Under the pieces are notes generated by a model. The model searched no databases, had not been told where the DNA came from, and saw only the letters and a list, made by a program, of their open reading frames with translations. Positions 13,561 through 24,665 of a stretch of 64,000 nt of DNA are shown piece after piece; within the stretch, counting starts at the first letter, position 1; each line of letters starts with the position of its first letter. Location: assembly GCF_005601135.1 (NCBI RefSeq), contig NZ_CP039381.1, positions 1,113,941 to 1,177,940 on the forward strand, given 5' to 3'. This DNA is from Ruminococcus bovis (GTDB taxonomy: Bacteria > Bacillota > Clostridia > Oscillospirales > Acutalibacteraceae). The position numbers and the translations under genes were made by a program.

Positions 13561-14307
13561 TTATAGTCTTTTCATATAATCATAGGCGATTGCTTCAATT
13601 TCGCTCGATTCAAGGGTGTCAATTATAGCAACAGCTCCATAGTGATTTAAGTATGAGTCACAACACTTTCGGAATAGTGTTGTACAGGAATTGCCCCGTT
13701 CATCTTGTAATCGTTTGAGTGCCATTAGCAAACCTTTAACAATATCTCGGTTCATACTGAATGATTGATCAAATAAATCTTTCTGGATTTGCTGAGCCGA
13801 AAACAGTGTTTCGGTTAGATACCAAGGATTTGTATCATCTTTTTCTTCATCATAAGTCAGATAACCGGACCACCACAATCTTGATATTGCATTATAGTAC
13901 AGTAAAGATGCTCTTCCTTCCGTTGCGAAAAATCGTCTGTCTAAACGAACTGTTCCGTCGTCTTTTTTCCATCGATCAAGGACGTATTGCTTAAAGGTAA
14001 TGTGGCACAATGCAGACCATAGCAAAGGATCGGATGCCTGTAACGGACTGAGCTTGTCTTTGTACTCACTATAAAGAATCTTGATATTAATCAAATCATT
14101 TCTGTTTTTTGTTTCCGAATCTTCTCCTCCTGTAACAAGTTGAATATTAGGAACAGTAACAGAAGAGGTTTTATAGAATTCATCCAATCCCTTTGAAGAA
14201 AAGTATTCGGTCAACCAAGGTTCATCGGAATAATACTTGTCTTTATTGTTGTTTAAATCTGTTTTCAAATACTTATATGCGTCTTTTGTAAAATATATAA
14301 GATTCAT
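13561..14307 (-). CDS. DUF6339 family protein
   Basis: The 248-aa protein has the N-terminus LIYFTKDAYKYLK and the central 'WSALCHITFKQYVLDRW' and 'LLYYNAISRLWWSGYLTYDE' blocks that I associate with DUF6339, a family seen in operons with GHKL ATPases and restriction-modification genes. Its start overlaps the stop of the upstream gene by 4 nt (ATGA), indicating translational coupling. No enzyme motif is evident; it is likely a structural or adaptor subunit of the ATPase system (inference). Confidence 0.7.
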   Translation of the reverse strand: MNLIYFTKDAYKYLKTDLNNNKDKYYSDEPWLTEYFSSKGLDEFYKTSSVTVPNIQLVTGGEDSETKNRNDLINIKILYSEYKDKLSPLQASDPLLWSALCHITFKQYVLDRWKKDDGTVRLDRRFFATEGRASLLYYNAISRLWWSGYLTYDEEKDDTNPWYLTETLFSAQQIQKDLFDQSFSMNRDIVKGLLMALKRLQDERGNSCTTLFRKCCDSYLNHYGAVAIIDTLESSEIEAIAYDYMKRL

Positions 14308-15242
14308 AGTGCTTCATCCTCTTGCTGAATAGTTGACCAATCAATCATTTTCTGCATAAGTGTATTAATTGAATCTCCTACGACATCACCTAATAGTTTA
14401 TTGGCGATTTCAAAATCCGATTGATTGCAGGTAGCCAACTCATCTATACCCATTTTGTTTAAGGCGTTGTATATAGATTCAGCCCAAATGGTCCCACGAT
14501 AATGGCAATCAGGATCCTCCTCAAGTTCCTCTTCACGACGTAACCTTGCGATAGCTTCGGTGATTGCGGGAAAAACAAGTGCTCCTTGCAGGAAACGAGC
14601 CAAAACATTCTTTAAGTGTTTTTTAGTGCTTAGTTTTGCGTAGTTTTTATATTCAGAATCAGGTAGTGAAATTGTAATGTAGTCAGTAAGCGAAGGATCG
14701 GTTTCTTCAACTGATGCAAAATAAACTTTCGGTTCAGTAATAGCTGAATTGGAATTGATAAAAACTACTCCCGCCATATTCTTTTCGAGTATTGTATTCA
14801 GCTTTATTGTTAAGCCCGGCTCGTTTGCAATGATATCACCTTTTCTCAGTTTAAAGCCCGGATATCCGCCAAAGTAATCCTGATTAAATTCCGGCAAGCA
14901 GTAATTATTTATATTCTGTGCAGCTACTATTGCAGCGCTTATATCAATTGAGTCGGTAACATTCTTTTTTGGTAATGAAATAACAGTAATATCTTCGTTG
15001 CTCATCTCAAAAACTTTTCTGAATGATGTTCTGAAACAAACTACTCTGATAAATACTTTTGCCAGACCTTGTGAAATTAAAGATTGTATTCCCGATCCAG
15101 TTAATGAATATGAAAGTTCAATGTCTATTGAATTTCCCGTGTCACTGTGTGAACCAACAGAAAGATTGAACGCGCAATTATCAAAATCGTTTGTATATTC
15201 ATTAAGAACTGGATGAGGATATTCAATTGCTCTGTTTTTCAT
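14304..15242 (-). CDS. Hypothetical protein of the GHKL-ATPase operon
   Basis: The start at 15242 is chosen because GGAGG sits 6 nt before it; an upstream in-frame ATG at 15272 has no such site. The 312-aa product begins MKNRAIEYPHPVLNEY, has a beta-rich first half and a helical C-terminal half with a charged stretch (RLRREEELEEDPDCHY). It overlaps the end of the ATPase gene by 20 nt and the start of the DUF6339 gene by 4 nt, so the three are one translationally coupled unit. No known domain was recognised by eye. Confidence 0.7.
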   Translation of the reverse strand: MKNRAIEYPHPVLNEYTNDFDNCAFNLSVGSHSDTGNSIDIELSYSLTGSGIQSLISQGLAKVFIRVVCFRTSFRKVFEMSNEDITVISLPKKNVTDSIDISAAIVAAQNINNYCLPEFNQDYFGGYPGFKLRKGDIIANEPGLTIKLNTILEKNMAGVVFINSNSAITEPKVYFASVEETDPSLTDYITISLPDSEYKNYAKLSTKKHLKNVLARFLQGALVFPAITEAIARLRREEELEEDPDCHYRGTIWAESIYNALNKMGIDELATCNQSDFEIANKLLGDVVGDSINTLMQKMIDWSTIQQEDEAL

Positions 15243-16017
15243 CTGAAACCTCCATTGAGAAAACAGGAACAACTGCCATTATTTCGTTGTTGCTGAATTC
15301 TACATACAAAGTATTGATACCTTTTTTCAGAGAAATCGGACCGATCTTTTCGCTGTTAACTTCAATACGAGGGGATCCTTCGAGTTTTAGATTTCTCACA
15401 ACAAGTGAATCCTGTTTATCATCATCACGTCCTGCAAAATACTGAATGAATACTTTTTCATAATCATTGGGTGAATTAATAAAGCATCGATATTTGTTTC
15501 CTGCAAGATAAAAAGTTCGATGTTCTACTATCTTTGGAGAAACAATTTTTACTTTACCTTTACCCGTTGAAACACCCGGTGATTGTCCATCAGGATTAAC
15601 TACTGGGATTCTGTTTTTTGATCTCTTTTTGCGCTTTTTCTTTCCTGTTTTTACGCCTGATTTTTGTGTTTCGGAACCCGATGCACTTTCGGCAGATTCA
15701 TACTGACTATTGTAGAATACTCGCCCGTCGTATGACTTGATTTCTTTTATCTTTACGTCTGTCTTTAATCCATCAGATCCTTCTGTTGCGCCGCTTGAAT
15801 CGGTAGCGTCAGGCAAATAGTTTCCTATGCCTGCATCCATTTTATCGGTAATGTCTGCACGATCATAATCATCTAATACCGATTGTATTTCTTTCCCGAT
15901 TTTTCGTATATATCTGCCTGCACGGTTTTTTAAGGTGATGTTATCGGTAATGTTTTTGGCTCTCCATTCAGTGTGCTGAGGTGGTTCGGCACTACGCAAT
16001 GTTTTGCTCAATCTCAT
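15223..16017 (-). pseudogene. C-terminal part of the GHKL ATPase gene, separated by IS66
   Basis: This open frame continues the coding sequence at 18517-19680 once the IS66 copy and one 8-bp duplication are removed. The join reads ..FSVVIIVNDVGE then MRLSKTLRSAEPPQHTEW.. without a break. It contains the conserved-looking 'SAEPPQHTEW' stretch, a Lys/Arg-rich linker (GKKKRKKRSKNR, about residues 125-137) and a beta-rich end. The ATG at 16017 is internal to the original gene. Whether the fragment is translated is unknown; it lacks the ATP-binding part. Confidence 0.85.
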
Positions 16018-16109
16018 TTCACCTACATCATTAACAATAATAACGTAACCGTCAAATCATCCTAAAAAATCCCTGCGAGTTTGTTCTCGCAGGGATTTCC
16101 ACATATGTA

Positions 16110-17668
16110 TCAAATTTTAACTTTGCACTCCTCTGGTGCATTCCAAGGCAGTAGAATATCAGCCGTTTCATTTTCCTTAATATTAGGGAACTTTTTGAAG
16201 ATATAGGTCAGATATCTAAACGGATTCAGATTGTTCTCTTTGGCTGTTTCGATTATGCTGTACATAACAGCACTGCCAGTAGCTCCTGACTCAGTATTGG
16301 CAAACAGGAAATTCTTTCTGCCCATCACAAAGGCTTAATGCTTCTTTCGGCTCGGTTATTGTCAATTTCTAATCTGCCGTCCTCTAAATATCTTCTGAGA
16401 TATTTCTCGTTATTCTTAAGATAGGTAAACGCACCACCAAGTTTGCTTTTAAATGCTATGCTTTGCTTTTCAGCCCAGCACAAAAGCGTCAAGAATTGGC
16501 TTTGATTTTCTTGTCGCACCTTTAGTATTTCTTCATAGCTTTTATCAGCTATTTCTTTTCTATTGCATATAGCTGATTGCAGTAATCTAAAGCAATTCCA
16601 GCTGTTGAGTTTGCTCGTTCGTCCTTGCTTATCATTTCTAATGCTTCAGCAAATTTTCTTCTGCAATGCGCCCAGCAACCAACAACTGTGAAGTTATCTC
16701 CAAGTTTGTGATATCCCTGATAACCATCTGCGTGTATGTAGCCATTAAAACCTTCAAGAAAGTTCTCCGCATTTTCAATCTTTCTGTTTGGTTTGTAATC
16801 ATACAGTACGATATTCTTTTCAGAGCATCCACTCGTTCTGTACAGCCACATATATGCTTTCTTTGGAGTAGGCTTCTCTTTGGTTTTCAGTACCTGCAGT
16901 GTTGTTTCATCTGCATGGATTACTTCCTCTTTTATGAGAAGCTCTCTTAACTTCTCATATATTGGTTCTAACCACAGCTGACTCGCTTTAAGTATCCAGT
17001 TAGACATTGTCTGTCTTGTTAATTCAACACCTTGCCTTTTCAGGTCTTGTTCTTGTCTATAGAGTGGTGAGTATATCACAAACTTCTGTGTCATAATGTG
17101 AGCCACTGCTTCTGGTGAAGCAAAGCTGCCTTTGATTACTGGCTTTTCCTGTGGTGTTTTACTATTGGGGTCTCAATACCGTTTTTCTCACAATTCTTGC
17201 AGGCGTAGGTGTAATATACATCCTCCTGAATAATCACCTCAGCAGGTTTGATTTTTAATGTTTTCTTTACTTCCTTACCAATAACCTCAAGCTGTTCATT
17301 ACAGTTAGGACATACCTTTTCTTCTTCGGGAAGAGTATGCTCTACAACAACTGTCTTGATGTTTTCTGGTAATTTGTCAAGAGTAGCTTCTTTCTTTTTC
17401 GGGTATGAGAAGCCACCTTAACCTCTTCCTTTGCTTCTACATCTGAGTAGAGCTCTGCTTCGTTATGAAGAAGACTAAGCTGTTCGTAAATATATTCCGA
17501 TTGTTCACTTTTTGAGCCATAGGTCTTTTTATTATTTATCTTAAGCTGCTCCATCAGCCACTTCACCTGTGTTTCAAGTTCTGAACAGTGCTCTTTTAAT
17601 GATTTTAGTTCATTATATTCATCCAGTGAAATAGTAATTGTTTCACTGTTTTTATCCTTGATTATCAT
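16110..17668 (-). pseudogene. tnpC: IS66 transposase TnpC, multiply frameshifted (copy 2)
   Basis: It has the same layout as in copy 1. The start region is intact here (MIIKDKNSETITISLDEYNE, A5 run). The frame is lost near 17395 (A5 where copy 1 has A6), near 17190-17165 and 16560 (shared with copy 1), near 16488 (two bases fewer than copy 1) and near 16334 (AAGCCTTTGTG, one T fewer). The fragments 16549-17106, 16325-16519 and 16110-16328 hold the core and C-terminal parts. Not functional as read. Confidence 0.9.
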
Positions 17669-17717
17669 ACCTATATTATACCACAAAACAAGGCAAAAGT
17701 ACAGTATTTAAGCCATT

Positions 17718-18074
17718 TTATGAGAACTTTATTCCACTTATTTTTTGTGTTGACTTAGGCTGGATTATATTAAGTCCCTCCATTAACCAACGATATTGCT
17801 GAGGTGTTATTGTGACACATTCTTCAGATTTTCGAGGCCATTGAAACTTACCTTTTTCAAGCCTTTTATACAGAAGCAGAAATCCGTCACCTTCCCAATA
17901 CAAACCTTTAATTCTATCCGTTCTTCGTCCACAGAAGAGAAACAAAGCATTTGTACAAGACTCAAGCTTAAACTGCTTTTCTATTATTGTTGCAAGTCCG
18001 TCTATTCCTCTGCGTAGATCAGTATATCCACTTGCAAGGTATATCGGGCAATTACAATTAAAATCATTAAGCAT
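17718..18074 (-). CDS. tnpB: IS66 accessory protein TnpB (copy 2)
   Basis: The protein is identical to the 118-aa TnpB of copy 1, including the TDLRRGIDGLA and GDGFLLLYKRLEKG blocks. It is the only intact gene of this IS66 copy. Confidence 0.93.
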   Translation of the reverse strand: MLNDFNCNCPIYLASGYTDLRRGIDGLATIIEKQFKLESCTNALFLFCGRRTDRIKGLYWEGDGFLLLYKRLEKGKFQWPRKSEECVTITPQQYRWLMEGLNIIQPKSTQKISGIKFS

Positions 18075-18398
18075 TTTTCATTGCCCTCAACACAGCTGTT
18101 ATTGTAGCTTCGTCAGCACCATTATTGATTTCTACTGTGAAATCATTTCTTTGATAGAAATCATAGGTGAGTTAGCGTTTACTTCTGGTTCTACTGACAC
18201 TTCTATGAATTGAGGTCTGTTTTTTTGAGTGTAGGCTTCGTATACCTTTTTCTGTCTGCTCCAAAATGTACTTACAGGAATATTGTTATTTCTGCACCAC
18301 TGCGCAACACTTAACCCACTGTTGTTGCATTTCTCTACTTGGTTTGCCCAAAGAGCCAGGTTCTGTTCTTTTCTTAATGTTCTGATACCTTTGTTCAT
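18067..18398 (-). pseudogene. tnpA: IS66 TnpA, frameshifted (copy 2)
   Basis: The product is the same as in copy 1 for the first 83 residues. Then ATCAAAGAAATG replaces ATCAAAAGAAATG (one A lost), and translation stops after EMISQ at 18132 instead of continuing to 18067. Confidence 0.85.
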
Positions 18399-18516
18399 AC
18401 GAAACTCTCCAATCGTTTTTTGTTGTAGTCTATTGTAGATGTTCGTCTACAACTTATTTACTTGGATATTTTCGCATGTTTTCAAATCCGCTTCAAGACG
18501 CTGGCTTATTTGACGG

Positions 18517-19680
18517 TTACATAATAACAACAGAGAAATGCGGTAACACATCATTTGTTGTTGTATTAATAAGCATACCGGTAGATCTGAATCGGGACAA
18601 AGACGCAGAATACTTTTCATCATATTTTACATAAATACTCAAATCATCTTTTTCGGCGATTTTGGCTTTTATTAACTCACCGTTTGTGATTGTTTCGTAC
18701 GTTTGACGAGTATATTTCAATTGAGGATCATCGCTGAATTCATTAAACAACAATTGCTCTAACGTTTTTGCTTCAATTACATATTCGATTTTAGGGGACT
18801 TAACAGTTACCGTCAGTTGGCCGTTCATAATAGCAAGAACAAAGTTTTTAATAATAGCAACGGCAGTAAGTCTTTCCCAATCAGTATAATCACTTTTCTT
18901 GAAACCGACAACAGCAACATCTGTTCCGATTTCAGAACGTTTAAAAACATCCATTTGCGCAATTGGACAATCATCGGAAGGCAAAAGCGGTCTTCCGGTA
19001 TAATCGTCAATTAAATATAGGTATTTACCGATAGGTTGAGTTGGTCGCATAGTACCGTTGTATTCTCTTTGAGTTGTAACTAATCGAGTTACTCCTTCGA
19101 ATGCTCTACCACCGTCTTTTGCTAATGTATTATAAAACACTAAGTTTAAAGCAGAATAGGCAAAAGGAGCATTTTTTCCGATACCAAAGCTTCCTGCGCT
19201 ATTGTCATTTTGTTTAATTGAGATACCCTCTGTATTAACCAGAAGATTCCAAAAAGATTGTTCGTGTGGTAATGCATTAACACCGTTCAATCCAACCGTG
19301 TTAAAATCACTCATTACAAGCATTGGAATCGTTTCACTATCTAATGCTGTTTTTATATTCGATAGAAATTCTGTTATTGAAGGCGTACATAGAGGACTGT
19401 TGTTCCAATATTCAATACTGCTATCTACCGCTTCTTCATAGCTTTTAAACATCGGATAATCACTTTTATTTACATCAAATAGTTCAAATTTTACTTTCAC
19501 AGGATTATCAGAGGGGAGAGAACTATCTTTTGCATCAAGAGAATTTTGACAGATTTCTCTTGCTAATCCATCCATTACGCCGCTTCCCTTGAACATAGTA
19601 ATAGCAGCAATATTGTTACCGCTTTCATTTCCGGTGCCCAATAAAGGAAAATCCCAGCAGATTTTTCCCACAAAAAACAA
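18517..19680 (-). pseudogene. GHKL (MORC/MutL-like) ATPase, N-terminal part, interrupted by IS66
   Basis: The 387-codon fragment holds a complete GHKL ATP-binding fold: N-box REICQNSLDAKD (about residues 42-53), MSDFNTVGLNG (about 121-131) in the place of the DxGxG motif, and the lid GSFGIGKNAPFAYSAL (about 162-177). Uninterrupted, the protein would be about 650 aa. ATPases of this kind (prokaryotic MORC relatives) are known beside methyltransferases and nucleases and are thought to form a DNA clamp in restriction-like systems. It starts 4 nt after the 73-aa gene. The IS66 insertion at residue 386 removes the C-terminal region. Confidence 0.9.
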
Positions 19681-20014: not shown

Positions 20015-20065
20015 GTTAAAAATAATAATGCAGCAGCCAAGATCACACTTGTCTGCTGCATTATT
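20015..20065 (-). terminator. Terminator between the RM operon and the ATPase operon
   Basis: The 13-bp stem AATAATGCAGCAG/CTGCTGCATTATT (20024-20036 and 20053-20065) overlaps the stop codon of the methyltransferase and is followed on the minus strand by ATTTTTAAC. It separates the two minus-strand operons. Confidence 0.85.
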
Positions 20066-20999
20066 ATTTTGATATATCATAAAGTATTTTCGCAATATTA
20101 TAAATAACAGGTACACATACTGAATTGCCGATTTGTTTGTAAACGCTTTTCAGTGATGTCTCGGCGATATTGAAACTTCCAGGGAACCCCATCAACGCTA
20201 AACACTCATCAGGTGTAATGGTGCGGATTCCGTAATTGTCTTTTATTATGGGTACTCGATCATACCAAGTGCCCATATTTGCTTTTAGGGTAAAACAGAT
20301 GCCGTCTTTGCTGGATTGTATCCCATAGTCTGAGAAACGATAGATTTGATTATCATCGATAATAGCCTTAACCATTTTATTGTATTTTGCTGTGTTTTCG
20401 GGAAGATAAAAGCTATCATCAACTTTGACAGTTTTATCAATAATATCAAATACACGTTTTTTCAATCTAACCTTTTCGGGAAAATGATAGGATTCACATT
20501 GATCAACGTTACGAAATGCAAGAAGATATGTTCTGGTGCGATGTTGAGGAATACCATAATCACAAGCGTCGGCAACTATATAGCGCAGATAATATCCTCT
20601 TGATACTAACTCGTTGTGAATTACATTAAATGTGCGTCCCTTGTCGTGCTCAACAAGATTAGCGACATTTTCAAGAAAAATGATTTGCGGATTAACGGCA
20701 TCGGTAATACGCATTATTTCAAAGAACAGGTTGCCTCGATTATCAATAAAGCCTTTTTGATTACCGCAAACCGAAAACGGTTGACAAGGGAACCCCGCAG
20801 TAATAATATCAACCTTTTGGAGTGAAGAAGTGATCAACTTCCGAACATCGCACTCAAACATAGTTGTTTCGGTGAAGTTTAATCTATAAGTTTTGCAGGC
20901 ATCGCTGTCTATATCATTTGCCCACACAATTTCAAATCCCGCCTGTTGAAATCCAAGGTCAATTCCGCCGATTCCAGAAAATAAGCTACCGATTGTCAT
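20064..20999 (-). CDS. DNA (cytosine-5-)-methyltransferase
   Basis: The 311-aa protein is a complete C5-cytosine methyltransferase: motif I LFSGIGGIDLGFQQAGF, the catalytic motif IV GFPCQPFSVCG with the Cys nucleophile, motif VI ENVANL, motif VIII QHRTRTYLLAF and the C-terminal motifs ALMGFPG and QIGNSVCVPV. The short target-recognition region (about 200-265) implies a simple palindromic site, which cannot be deduced. The ATG overlaps the stop of the preceding endonuclease gene by 4 nt, so they form a restriction-modification pair. Confidence 0.95.
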   Translation of the reverse strand: MTIGSLFSGIGGIDLGFQQAGFEIVWANDIDSDACKTYRLNFTETTMFECDVRKLITSSLQKVDIITAGFPCQPFSVCGNQKGFIDNRGNLFFEIMRITDAVNPQIIFLENVANLVEHDKGRTFNVIHNELVSRGYYLRYIVADACDYGIPQHRTRTYLLAFRNVDQCESYHFPEKVRLKKRVFDIIDKTVKVDDSFYLPENTAKYNKMVKAIIDDNQIYRFSDYGIQSSKDGICFTLKANMGTWYDRVPIIKDNYGIRTITPDECLALMGFPGSFNIAETSLKSVYKQIGNSVCVPVIYNIAKILYDISK

Positions 21000-21613
21000 T
21001 CTGTGATTTTTGAAACCATTTCAGGTGTTATGACACTTGCTGCTGTAATAACATCTACCTTACCTGGGGCCATAAAGCATTTAGTTTTTAAATTCGTAAT
21101 AAATGAATCAAAAGAATCGTCTGTTGTAAGTATAGCTTGGTTTAATCCCAATAAATCGCCGTTTTTAATTTTTCTTGATACAGTATTTGCTTCTTGTTCA
21201 TCCATTGTAAACAGATAATTTTCAGCTTTTCTATGAACATATTTTAGAGCAACTGCTTCCAGATCGGCTTGCTTGTATCTTTCTCGTAAACTTGTCTTCA
21301 AACTTAATGCAATTGGTCCTTCGGCTGTATAAAGAACTGCATCAAATTTTGCGTTAGGAACAAATGCTACTTGAGCCTGAAGATGAAGTGGCAGAATACC
21401 CTCTTTCACTAATAATGATGAAATAATTAATTCAAATATAATTCCATTAAGAGAATTATTGTGGTTAATATTTGCTTGCGTGTATTTATCCCAACAATAC
21501 TTTACATACTCACTCGCTGACATAGTGTTAGTAAGAAAATCAGGACAAATGTATTCGTTAAATACATTGTACCCTTTAGTCTTTCTTTTAACAATTTTTA
21601 GTTTTTTCAGCAT
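20996..21613 (-). CDS. Probable type II restriction endonuclease
   Basis: The 205-aa protein shows a PD-(D/E)XK-like arrangement: an acidic helix (SLNGIIFELIISSLL), then KFDAVLYTAEGPIALSLKTS with Asp and Lys in place of the D..xK active site, followed by conserved basic residues. It lies 9 nt after the HpaII-like fusion gene and overlaps the second methyltransferase by 4 nt. Context makes it the cognate endonuclease of that methyltransferase; specificity is unknown. Confidence 0.75.
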   Translation of the reverse strand: MLKKLKIVKRKTKGYNVFNEYICPDFLTNTMSASEYVKYCWDKYTQANINHNNSLNGIIFELIISSLLVKEGILPLHLQAQVAFVPNAKFDAVLYTAEGPIALSLKTSLRERYKQADLEAVALKYVHRKAENYLFTMDEQEANTVSRKIKNGDLLGLNQAILTTDDSFDSFITNLKTKCFMAPGKVDVITAASVITPEMVSKITE

Positions 21614-21622
21614 AAAAATACC

Positions 21623-23734
21623 TCATTTTATGAATCTAATTTGAAGATTTAATTTCAAATAGTATTTATTATTTTCTTTATATATAGTTCCGAACTGATG
21701 GCGACTGGTACTTGCAGTTTCAAACTTGGTGTTTTGGAGCAAGTAATTTTCAAATTCATTGTGATTGAAAAGGTGATAGCACAGCACTTCGCCATCTTCT
21801 CTTACAATTATATATCCTCCTGTAGCATCGGCTATTCCGTCCCAAGTTTTTCCGGGTAACATACCGAGGGCACATTCCGAAAGCATTCTTTTGAATTTAT
21901 ATGAATAGAACGGATGACCGTTTGAAAGGTTGTAATTCAAAGGATTTGTTTCTGTAATACTGTTCAGCGAATCAATTACTTTATTCAAACCGGAGCTATA
22001 ATAGCTTTTGAGCATATATCCGCATATTTTCGGTAAGTCTCCGTCAATCAGCATTAGATTACCTTCAAACACAGAGTTTTCCATTCCGACATACTCTATA
22101 TCACAAGCGTTATTATGCAAAACGGTAAACTTGTCTTTGAATTTCTTGGAACAGGTATTAAAATTACTCATAATCTCATCGTTGATCGGTCCGTTAACTT
22201 CAAAAATAAAGTTTGTTGTTTTACCAGCGTTAATAAGCGTAGACGGACCGCCGAGTCTTGATTTAATACTAAATCCCTGTACCGATTCAAATCCGGAGTT
22301 AATATCGTGAATCTTGATTCTTATGTCAGCTTTGTCCTCAGATGGAGCTTTGAGTGAAGAAATTCCTAAATTATCCAAAAAAGCTTCTGTATCTCTCAAC
22401 GAGAAAGCGCCCTTCGTATTGTTTTGCGATTTGGTGATTTCAGAATAAAGCTTGTCAGCAGCTGCTTTAAACTCTGTTACCGGCATTGTTCCGAGAACGC
22501 TTTCATCGGTTGTATTTATTATTGTAATGGTGTCTTCGCTCTGATTAACTCTAAATTCCAGTTTTCCAATGTTTTCCTGACGTAGTATTTTTATAATGTT
22601 ATAAAATACGTCATTCATTTTGTTGAGATTTTCATCGGCTGCGTATAGTTTTCCTATTTCCAACAATCGGAGGAAAACATATATTTCCGACCATTCGCCT
22701 TTATTTCCTGATAAATCGGGTTTATATGTTCCGTCTGCCATTTCAAGTACTTTTTTGATCTTTTTGGCGATTGCTTCAATAACAGGAACTGTTACGCTGT
22801 TTCCGAGTTGTTTGTATAAATGAGTATCAGCCAACGGTAAAACGAAATCATCGGGATAGCCTTGTAAACGAGCCCATTCACGAGGCGTCATTTTTCTGAT
22901 TCCGTAAGGATTGATTTCGCCTTTAATATTTGTGGTGGGAACGAGCTTTTTTTGCCTACTGTCTGTAACGAGATTTCTCTCTCTGCCCATACCACCGCAT
23001 ACTATTGCGCCTGCAACATCATCCCAATCTCTTATCTCATATCCAAAGCCGTTTCCTTTGGATTCGTGACGTTTTTTGTGAGCAATAAGGGTGTCCATAT
23101 ATTTGCTGCTCAAATAATACTTTGCCGGAACAGCTTCTTCTTCTCTGATATCCCAAAGAACTTTTGAGCTATCGGTGGCTTCGGGAAATATAAAATTCTT
23201 AGGTGCGATATCATTTCGAAAAGCAACAAGATAGATTCTTTCTCTGTTCTGTGGTACTCCGAAATTTCTACTGTTAAGAATTTTATCAAAGACTTTATAT
23301 CCCAAATCTTCAAAAGTTTTCTTTATAATTTTATAGGTGCGTCCTCTATCGTGAATAGTGAGTCCTTTCACGTTCTCACAAAAGATCACCTTTGGCTTAT
23401 GGTAATCGCAGATACGAGCCACATCAAGAAACAATGTGCCTCTGCAAGTGCCTTTATAGTCATCATCAAATCCCTGCTTACGACCGGCCATACTAAACGC
23501 TTGACACGGGAAACCGGCAAGACAGATATCAAACTCAGGGATTTGACTCTCATCTATTTTTGTAATATCTCCGGCGATTTCAAAATCGTCGTCAAAATTT
23601 GCCCGGTAGGTTTCCTGTGCCTTTTCATCCCATTCGCTAACGAATACTGTTTCTATTTCATCCTTGAAAGCACGGTCGAACCCTAAACGGATTCCGCCTA
23701 TGCCAGCGAACAAATCGATTGACTTATAAACCAT
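21623..23734 (-). CDS. Fused cytosine methyltransferase-HpaII-type restriction endonuclease
   Basis: GGAGT 8 nt upstream selects the ATG at 23734 (MVYKSIDLFAGIGGIRLGF), giving 703 aa. Residues about 1-335 are a C5-methyltransferase (motif I DLFAGIGGIRLGF; motif IV GFPCQAFSMAGRKQGF; motif VIII QNRERIYLVAF; QLGNSVTVPV). Residues about 350-703 resemble HpaII-family endonucleases, beginning with NKGEWSEIYVFLRLLEIGKL and containing IKSRLGGPSTLINAG and YSYKFKRMLSECALGMLPG. HpaII recognises CCGG, so CCGG is the predicted site. Modification and cleavage in one chain is unusual, because HpaII itself is encoded by separate genes. Confidence 0.88.
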   Translation of the reverse strand: MVYKSIDLFAGIGGIRLGFDRAFKDEIETVFVSEWDEKAQETYRANFDDDFEIAGDITKIDESQIPEFDICLAGFPCQAFSMAGRKQGFDDDYKGTCRGTLFLDVARICDYHKPKVIFCENVKGLTIHDRGRTYKIIKKTFEDLGYKVFDKILNSRNFGVPQNRERIYLVAFRNDIAPKNFIFPEATDSSKVLWDIREEEAVPAKYYLSSKYMDTLIAHKKRHESKGNGFGYEIRDWDDVAGAIVCGGMGRERNLVTDSRQKKLVPTTNIKGEINPYGIRKMTPREWARLQGYPDDFVLPLADTHLYKQLGNSVTVPVIEAIAKKIKKVLEMADGTYKPDLSGNKGEWSEIYVFLRLLEIGKLYAADENLNKMNDVFYNIIKILRQENIGKLEFRVNQSEDTITIINTTDESVLGTMPVTEFKAAADKLYSEITKSQNNTKGAFSLRDTEAFLDNLGISSLKAPSEDKADIRIKIHDINSGFESVQGFSIKSRLGGPSTLINAGKTTNFIFEVNGPINDEIMSNFNTCSKKFKDKFTVLHNNACDIEYVGMENSVFEGNLMLIDGDLPKICGYMLKSYYSSGLNKVIDSLNSITETNPLNYNLSNGHPFYSYKFKRMLSECALGMLPGKTWDGIADATGGYIIVREDGEVLCYHLFNHNEFENYLLQNTKFETASTSRHQFGTIYKENNKYYLKLNLQIRFIK

Positions 23735-23748
23735 AATTCTTACTCCAT

Positions 23749-24252
23749 TCAATATCCGATAATCAATATTCCTTTTAAAGGAATAGAAAACTTATTACTG
23801 GCATACATAGCATCAAAAAATTCGCAGACTTTTTTGTAGTCGTCATTCTTTCTGTACAGTAATCTTACTGCGATGCATAGATAGTCGGCGTCGTCCATAC
23901 AACACGATTCAAAGAAGTCTTTCAGAAACTGATAGTTTGTTACTGCTCTGCCGGCTTCAACTTCAATAACAATATTATTACTTGGATTAAATGCATCTGC
24001 TTCAAAGTTTAGTGATGGTTTACCGCATTCGCCGTATAATACAGGCATTTTGATCTTATCTTCGTCACGCTTACTTTTTTCAACGGAATATCCAATCTCT
24101 TCAAGTCCATTTGCTATCGAATGCAATACTTCATCGCTTTTTAATTTGTGTTCAGACGAATTAATATGATTGTTGTTACGATTAAATACATCAATAACTT
24201 TAAGTAAGTCATCTGTTATTCTTTGGTTTCTCGGAAAATATGACCACTTCAT
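23749..24252 (-). CDS. Putative PD-(D/E)XK-type nuclease of the RM operon
   Basis: The 167-aa protein has a central FEADAFNPSNNIVIEVEAGR (about residues 90-110) with Asp and an ExE pair that fit a PD-(D/E)XK core (D..ExE). Its ATG overlaps the stop of vsr by 4 nt, and it ends 14 nt before the fused methyltransferase, so it belongs to the same operon. It may be a further restriction or repair nuclease. No named family was recognised; the active-site reading is tentative. Confidence 0.6.
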   Translation of the reverse strand: MKWSYFPRNQRITDDLLKVIDVFNRNNNHINSSEHKLKSDEVLHSIANGLEEIGYSVEKSKRDEDKIKMPVLYGECGKPSLNFEADAFNPSNNIVIEVEAGRAVTNYQFLKDFFESCCMDDADYLCIAVRLLYRKNDDYKKVCEFFDAMYASNKFSIPLKGILIIGY

Positions 24253-24665
24253 TTTATACTCCTAACAGCTGCTTCTATTTTATCGGCACAGCCTGATAAG
24301 TCTTTTTTGATCTCATTACCCCAAAATCTTAATACTATCCATCCCTCGGACGTGAGCTTTTCGGTTACCTCACGATCACGTTGCATATTCTTTTCGATTT
24401 TAGGTATCCAAAAATCACGATTGGACTTAATCTCTTTGTTTTTGTTTTCCCAATCATATCCGTGAAAGAACTCACTGTCACAGAATACGGCAACTTTTTT
24501 TCCGATAAAGGCTATATCGGGTTTCCCGTAAACGGTTTTAGCGTTTTTTCTGTATCGTAAACCTCTGTGCCATAATTCTTTTTGCAGCATAGTTTCAATT
24601 TTGGAGCCCTTGTTTTTTACCGCTTTCATATTACGGCGACGTTGCTCCGGAGTATGATTGTCCAT
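24249..24665 (-). CDS. vsr: Very short patch repair (Vsr) endonuclease
   Basis: The 138-aa protein is a full-length Vsr: it has the N-terminal TPEQRRRNMKAVKNKGSKIE, the core KPDIAFIGKKVAVFCDSEFF with the catalytic Asp, then FWIPKIEKNMQRD and GWIVLRFWGNEI. Vsr nicks next to T:G mismatches that arise when methylated cytosine deaminates, so it protects the sites of the two cytosine methyltransferases downstream. It opens the RM operon. Confidence 0.95.
   Translation of the reverse strand: MDNHTPEQRRRNMKAVKNKGSKIETMLQKELWHRGLRYRKNAKTVYGKPDIAFIGKKVAVFCDSEFFHGYDWENKNKEIKSNRDFWIPKIEKNMQRDREVTEKLTSEGWIVLRFWGNEIKKDLSGCADKIEAAVRSIK

Follow-up and report, generated by a model that had tools for sequence, protein, structure and literature searches.

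The 64,000-nucleotide stretch of the Ruminococcus bovis genome analysed here (the window) carries on its minus strand, at 21623..23734, a single gene of 703 aa in which a C5-methyltransferase (M1, PF00145, residues 3-328) is continued in the same chain by an HpaII-family endonuclease (R, PF09561, residues 344-701). We consider it probable that this fused gene is a Type II CCGG restriction-modification system with both enzymes in one polypeptide, an 'RM.' enzyme; the M1 recognition region shared with other HpaII-family loci, the MspI/HinP1I-like fold predicted for R and its D...(N/S)IK site make a single-chain CCGG enzyme the best reading. The N-terminal half would modify CCGG at its inner C (CmCGG), the C-terminal half would cut the same site if unmethylated, and a Vsr protein encoded upstream would repair the T:G mismatches left by deamination of the methylated C. 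In such an arrangement R would probably be made in a constant 1:1 proportion to M1, with the protecting methylase always made first. CCGG specificity, inner-C methylation and cleavage are properties that we infer for the fused protein from homology to its relatives.

The ORF runs on the minus strand from 23752 to 21623 (709 aa from a TTG), with a better start at the ATG at 23734 that gives the 703 aa, while the plus-strand frame over 21623-23734 is full of stops. The initial annotation had described a methyltransferase and an HpaII-like nuclease in one chain at exactly these coordinates, and the ORF check bears this out: the DNA_methylase domain is complete (E=8e-96, profile 1-324 of 324), and RE_HpaII is likewise present over its full profile (1-359 of 359, E=4e-131, 438 bits with a cut-off of 25) without stops. 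The two-domain match is far beyond chance and confirms the assignment of the C-terminal half to the HpaII family; the two HpaII-family stretches quoted at the time, NKGEWSEIYVFL and IKSRLGGPSTLINAG, are both found in the fused protein. This is the only PF09561 match in the genome (single contig, 2.44 Mb), and a second example of methylase and nuclease in one polypeptide was found in a locus that we call L039.

The M1 domain (22751..23728, minus strand) contains a complete catalytic domain with the PCQ cysteine Cys77, ENV and an HpaII-type recognition region at about residues 200-275; it also matches TIGR00675, and its closest fold is that of M.HhaI (Z 28.6). The recognition region (KYYLS...GNGFGYEI...GGMGRERNL...IKGE) is common to the M1 proteins of other HpaII-family loci, including three (L021, L023, L032) in which no methylase other than M1 guards R. 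The inner C of CCGG is the base that M.HpaII methylates, and the M1 half, a C5-methyltransferase with a recognition region of this type, probably has that specificity.

The R domain (21632..22705, minus strand) keeps every column that is invariant across the R homologues, namely D470, S489-I-K491, S492 and E350, and with them the catalytic core D...(S/N)IK of the HpaII endonuclease family. The positions K125, D127 and F145-S149, invariant in 18 R homologues, correspond in the fused protein to D470 and S489-I-K491. The spacing D470-x18-S-I-K491, set in an invariant K-x-D ... F-S-I-K-S pattern, parallels D99-x17-N117-I-K119 of MspI, for which the sequence on the Acinetobacter sp. NEB149 plasmid pMsp22 was used. 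A sequence search found no solved structure of an HpaII-family nuclease. The R domain was modelled alone (pLDDT 90.1), and above Z 5 the model matched only HinP1I (Z 5.9 over 179 residues, rmsd 5.6, and also 5.2) and MspI (Z 5.8 over 181 residues, rmsd 5.1), and the hit after these, an unrelated one, scored 3.3; a Z near 6 is weak alone. Foldseek with the whole fusion gave methylases only among the matches listed (best 50). Since HinP1I and MspI are monomeric enzymes (PMC4081073), an R half with a fold of this type would plausibly be active while tethered. Together, the shared M1 recognition region and the MspI-like predicted fold and active site lend good support by homology to the CCGG target that had been proposed.

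The state of the active site also bears on a reading in which the fused protein methylates CCGG but has an inactive or attenuated nuclease half, and the locus serves as a protective or regulatory methylase. This would suit a recent fusion in which the independent translation of R is lost, the linker is six residues longer than in L039 and an IS66-type insertion has disrupted defence genes nearby, but D470, S489-I-K491, S492 and E350 are all kept as in active-looking homologues and the R domain is full-length and free of stops; we regard it as unlikely but not negligible. Elsewhere in the family, two Bacteroidales-type HpaII-family proteins without an adjoining methylase (L034, 4989-6074; L038, 3890-4975) have FNVRS in place of FSIKS, and with the catalytic K changed to R their nuclease may be inactive.

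The search for PF09561 covered four overlapping sets of Bacillota genomes (398, 295, 250 and 341), and further loci were drawn from genome, plasmid, phage-record and viral collections. Both the R start and an upstream methylase were visible in 24 loci; M1 and R are separate genes in 22 of them, usually overlapping by 1-60 bases, and fused in two, the window and L039 (the IMG/VR contig IMGVR_UViG_3300006134_000205). The L039 fusion comprises 698 aa (PF00145 at 4-331, PF09561 at 342-696) and is 78%/71% identical to that of the window, both copies retaining one intact frame despite 22-29% protein divergence. It shows the same order of M1 and R, the same junction position and M2, a second methylase, directly downstream; in contrast to the window it retains an AAGGAGG before R and lacks both the six-residue linker addition and the gene X205 described below. 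The R tree pairs L039 with the unfused L066 (100/98) and sets the window beside that pair (97/89). Both fusions are thus close kin, and either one origin followed by a reversal or two origins is possible. The only match of the exact-junction pattern in viral contigs (L069) arose by chance and lies outside the vsr-M1-R-M2 operon family, and no near-identical DNA was found in phage records. Among the other loci, a Lactococcus petauri plasmid (L033, 3833-6047) combines an HpaII-family nuclease with a methylase that is M.MspI-like (56% to the pMsp22 enzyme), not M.HpaII-like.

The junction of the window fusion, MADGTYKPDLSG (residues 332-343; 22706..22741, minus strand), contains an in-frame ATG at 22741-22739 (residue 332), which falls where the separate R genes of the relatives begin. 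In the unfused L004, L031 and L066 the methylase end and the R start overlap (AATGCCTAA), and the aligned junctions read GTACTTGAAAATGCCTAA in L066, GTACTTGAAATGGCA in the window and TTGGATATGCC in L039; GAAAATG in L066 stands against GAAATG, one base fewer, in the window. From an overlap of M1 stop and R start such as ATGCCTAA in the unfused relatives, the loss of one base would place the R start codon in the M1 frame, and we infer that the fusion arose in this way. Most unfused relatives have an AAGGAGG-type site just before R, for which the window has AAAAAAG, and no AAGGAGG lies upstream of its junction. With the ribosome-binding site degenerated, R is probably made only as part of the fusion, although the ATG at residue 332 could act as an internal start and still yield some free R.

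In this genome the fusion depends on one base in a short A-run, read in one assembly; were the run AAAA, M1 and R would again be two overlapping genes. An error of one base in GAAA(A)TG, in sequencing or in assembly, would therefore suffice to make two separate genes look fused: with one A added, M1 would end ...VLENGRRNI-stop and R would have its own ATG, close to the situation in L066 and L004, and 22 of the 24 loci are in fact unfused. However, L039 was sequenced independently and is fused at the same place; there the local sequence is a different one (GGATATGCC), with no A-run, and the fused reading frame stays open for 698 codons. Moreover, a separate R gene would depend on an AAGGAGG site, which the window has lost. 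In view of this second, diverged and frame-intact fusion a lone sequencing error is unlikely, and we give the error reading only a low probability, below that of an inactive nuclease.

For the single-chain enzyme a more specific history can be proposed, namely a C5-methyltransferase-endonuclease chain that acts on a 4-bp palindrome (Type IIP behaviour in a Type IIC architecture), arose by one-base loss at an overlapping gene pair and is evolutionarily maintained. Since Vsr is fused to M1 elsewhere in the operon family, junction slippage would on this view have joined its repair, modification and restriction genes more than once. We would put the chances of this history at about even. The Vsr-M1 fusions belong to the same operon family and differ from the window in that M1 is in frame with its neighbour Vsr, not with R. 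There are at least four such in-frame joins, of about 471-475 aa, located at 60-1487 in L029, 75-1490 in L055, 81-1505 in L056 and 2594-4018 in L058. A Vsr joined to a C5 methylase with a longer middle part was also seen (L035, 3236-5011).

The fused gene lies in a minus-strand operon whose first gene, at 24249..24665, encodes the very-short-patch mismatch endonuclease Vsr (TIGR00632, E=5e-43; PF03852), so that its placement in the same operon by the initial annotation holds. Between vsr and M1 is X167 (167 aa, 23749..24252, minus strand), which is present in some relatives and missing from others, with 98.8% identity in L003 and in Ruminococcus bromii ATCC 27255 (L017) and 69% in L004. No convincing match to X167 was found in Pfam, NCBIfam or PADLOC; its sequence includes FEADAF...IVIEVEAG, which recalls the core of a nuclease. 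Downstream of the fused gene follow X205 (205 aa, 20996..21613, minus strand) and M2, a second C5-methyltransferase of 311 aa (20064..20999, minus strand). Further along the minus strand, an IS66-type insertion at about 16.5-18.4 kb interrupts the PADLOC candidate defence pair PDC-M33A/M33B (window 14304-19680); M33A is split into profile positions 3-344 at 18520-19680 and 364-611 at 15226-16017, with M33B then at 14307-15272.

X205 is a putative CC-GG-family restriction endonuclease, found between R and M2 in the window only, and no relatives of it were found in 294 other genomes of the order. It carries the motif K-T-x-L-R-E-R (KTSLRERY compared with KTTLRERW), its match to Pfam BsaWI is below cut-off (E=0.0025), and its only PDB profile matches are weak ones to Ecl18kI (E=0.003), PspGI (0.0045) and EcoRII (0.056 and 0.23). 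Homologues directly adjoin methylases, which are M.MspI-like in L044 and L046 (54-58% to the pMsp22 enzyme) and of another type in L042 and L043. We read X205 as an insertion, putatively related to Ecl18kI/PspGI/EcoRII-type nucleases; from the motif, the weak profile matches and the methylase neighbours, it is a fair guess that it is a CC-GG-type nuclease, perhaps also guarded by M1. X205 and M2 had been taken for an independent second RM pair, a view that we revise, since many related operons have M2 without X205, and the relatives of X205 elsewhere pair with M.MspI-like or other methylases and not with M2-like ones.

M2 is instead the regular fourth member of the vsr-M1-R-M2 operon family. 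It follows R, or the slot of an HNH nuclease, in R. bromii ATCC 27255 and in L018, L019, L026, L029, L030, L039, L054-L058, L066 and L067, none of which has X205 in between. The frame of M1 and M2 is constant while the nuclease slot varies, holding R proteins of three clades or the HNH nuclease, whose gene replaces the HpaII-type nuclease in opposite orientation in L018 (3654-4307) and L019 (7053-7736). Plasmid relatives of M2 include methylases beside Bsp6I-family nucleases, and a viral scan for M2 gave no matches. The M2-positive R proteins do not form one clade, so M2 does not track R. A further reading has M1 and M2 each methylating one strand of a single asymmetric site, to which the HpaII-like nuclease would have shifted from CCGG. 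It would agree with M2 staying beside M1 across three R clades and even beside the unrelated HNH nuclease, but we consider it the least probable of these readings because the R proteins of loci with M2 are polyphyletic and scattered among those of loci without it (three changes, at least two of them forced by supported branches), the M1 recognition region is the same in M2-less loci, and there M1 alone must guard R.

The nearest named relative of the operon, R. bromii ATCC 27255, shares 94-100% identity in vsr, in X167 and in roughly 400 bases at the start of M1; from about 23,340 identity falls to 72-82%, and its R belongs to a different clade. This sharp drop within M1 indicates a recombination breakpoint near 23,340 and thus a recombinant locus. 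A count over 400 kb of this genome shows no avoidance of CCGG (obs/exp 1.06) and few CTGG sites (0.47), compared with CCGG values of 0.22-0.87 in nine genomes of the same genus and of 0.22 and 0.28 in two other carriers (G032 and G034). These statistics are as CCGG methylation and very-short-patch repair would give and are only suggestive. As a strong Vsr/CCGG footprint they were rejected, since CTGG is also low in same-genus genomes in which a PF03852 search finds no vsr, the CCGG signal is missing from the two other carriers, and the codon phase is a confounder.

In classical HpaII restriction-modification, methylase and nuclease are separate proteins. Such separation is normal for enzymes that cut short palindromes, and it allows the cell to schedule marking ahead of cutting. 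A C5 single chain of natural origin with a fixed 1:1 output would allow a test of how a nuclease of the monomeric type can be tethered safely to its antidote, and also of whether fusion lowers self-cutting or post-segregational killing; the junctions of the relatives provide a ready-made before/after series. The locus resembles the HpaII system in its nuclease family (a complete PF09561 domain), its kind of C5 methylase, a vsr nearby and the presumed CCGG target, and differs from it in having one polypeptide instead of two and an operon that adds M2 and X205. A functional HpaII-like pair is known from a protist mitochondrion (PMC8099122). R resembles MspI and HinP1I, both monomeric, in its predicted fold and D...(N/S)IK active site, although it has no significant sequence match to them and belongs to PF09561. 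Restriction and modification in one chain are also the hallmark of Type IIC enzymes such as BcgI, AloI, MmeI, BpuSI and BtgZI, which have an N-terminal PD-D/EXK domain and a gamma-class methylase or, in BtgZI, an alpha-class methylase followed by the nuclease, and which often cut away from asymmetric or bipartite sites (PMC4081073). In the parts of a 2025 review that concern combined RM enzymes, these are single polypeptides and no C5 case is named (PMC12707154). A prior listing of the architecture in REBASE or InterPro is possible; the methylase-nuclease chains in PMC4081073 are of gamma or alpha class. In contrast to the gamma- or alpha-class amino-methyltransferases of the described Type IIC members, the methylase of the fused protein is a C5 enzyme (PF00145), placed before an MspI-like nuclease and probably directed at a short palindrome.
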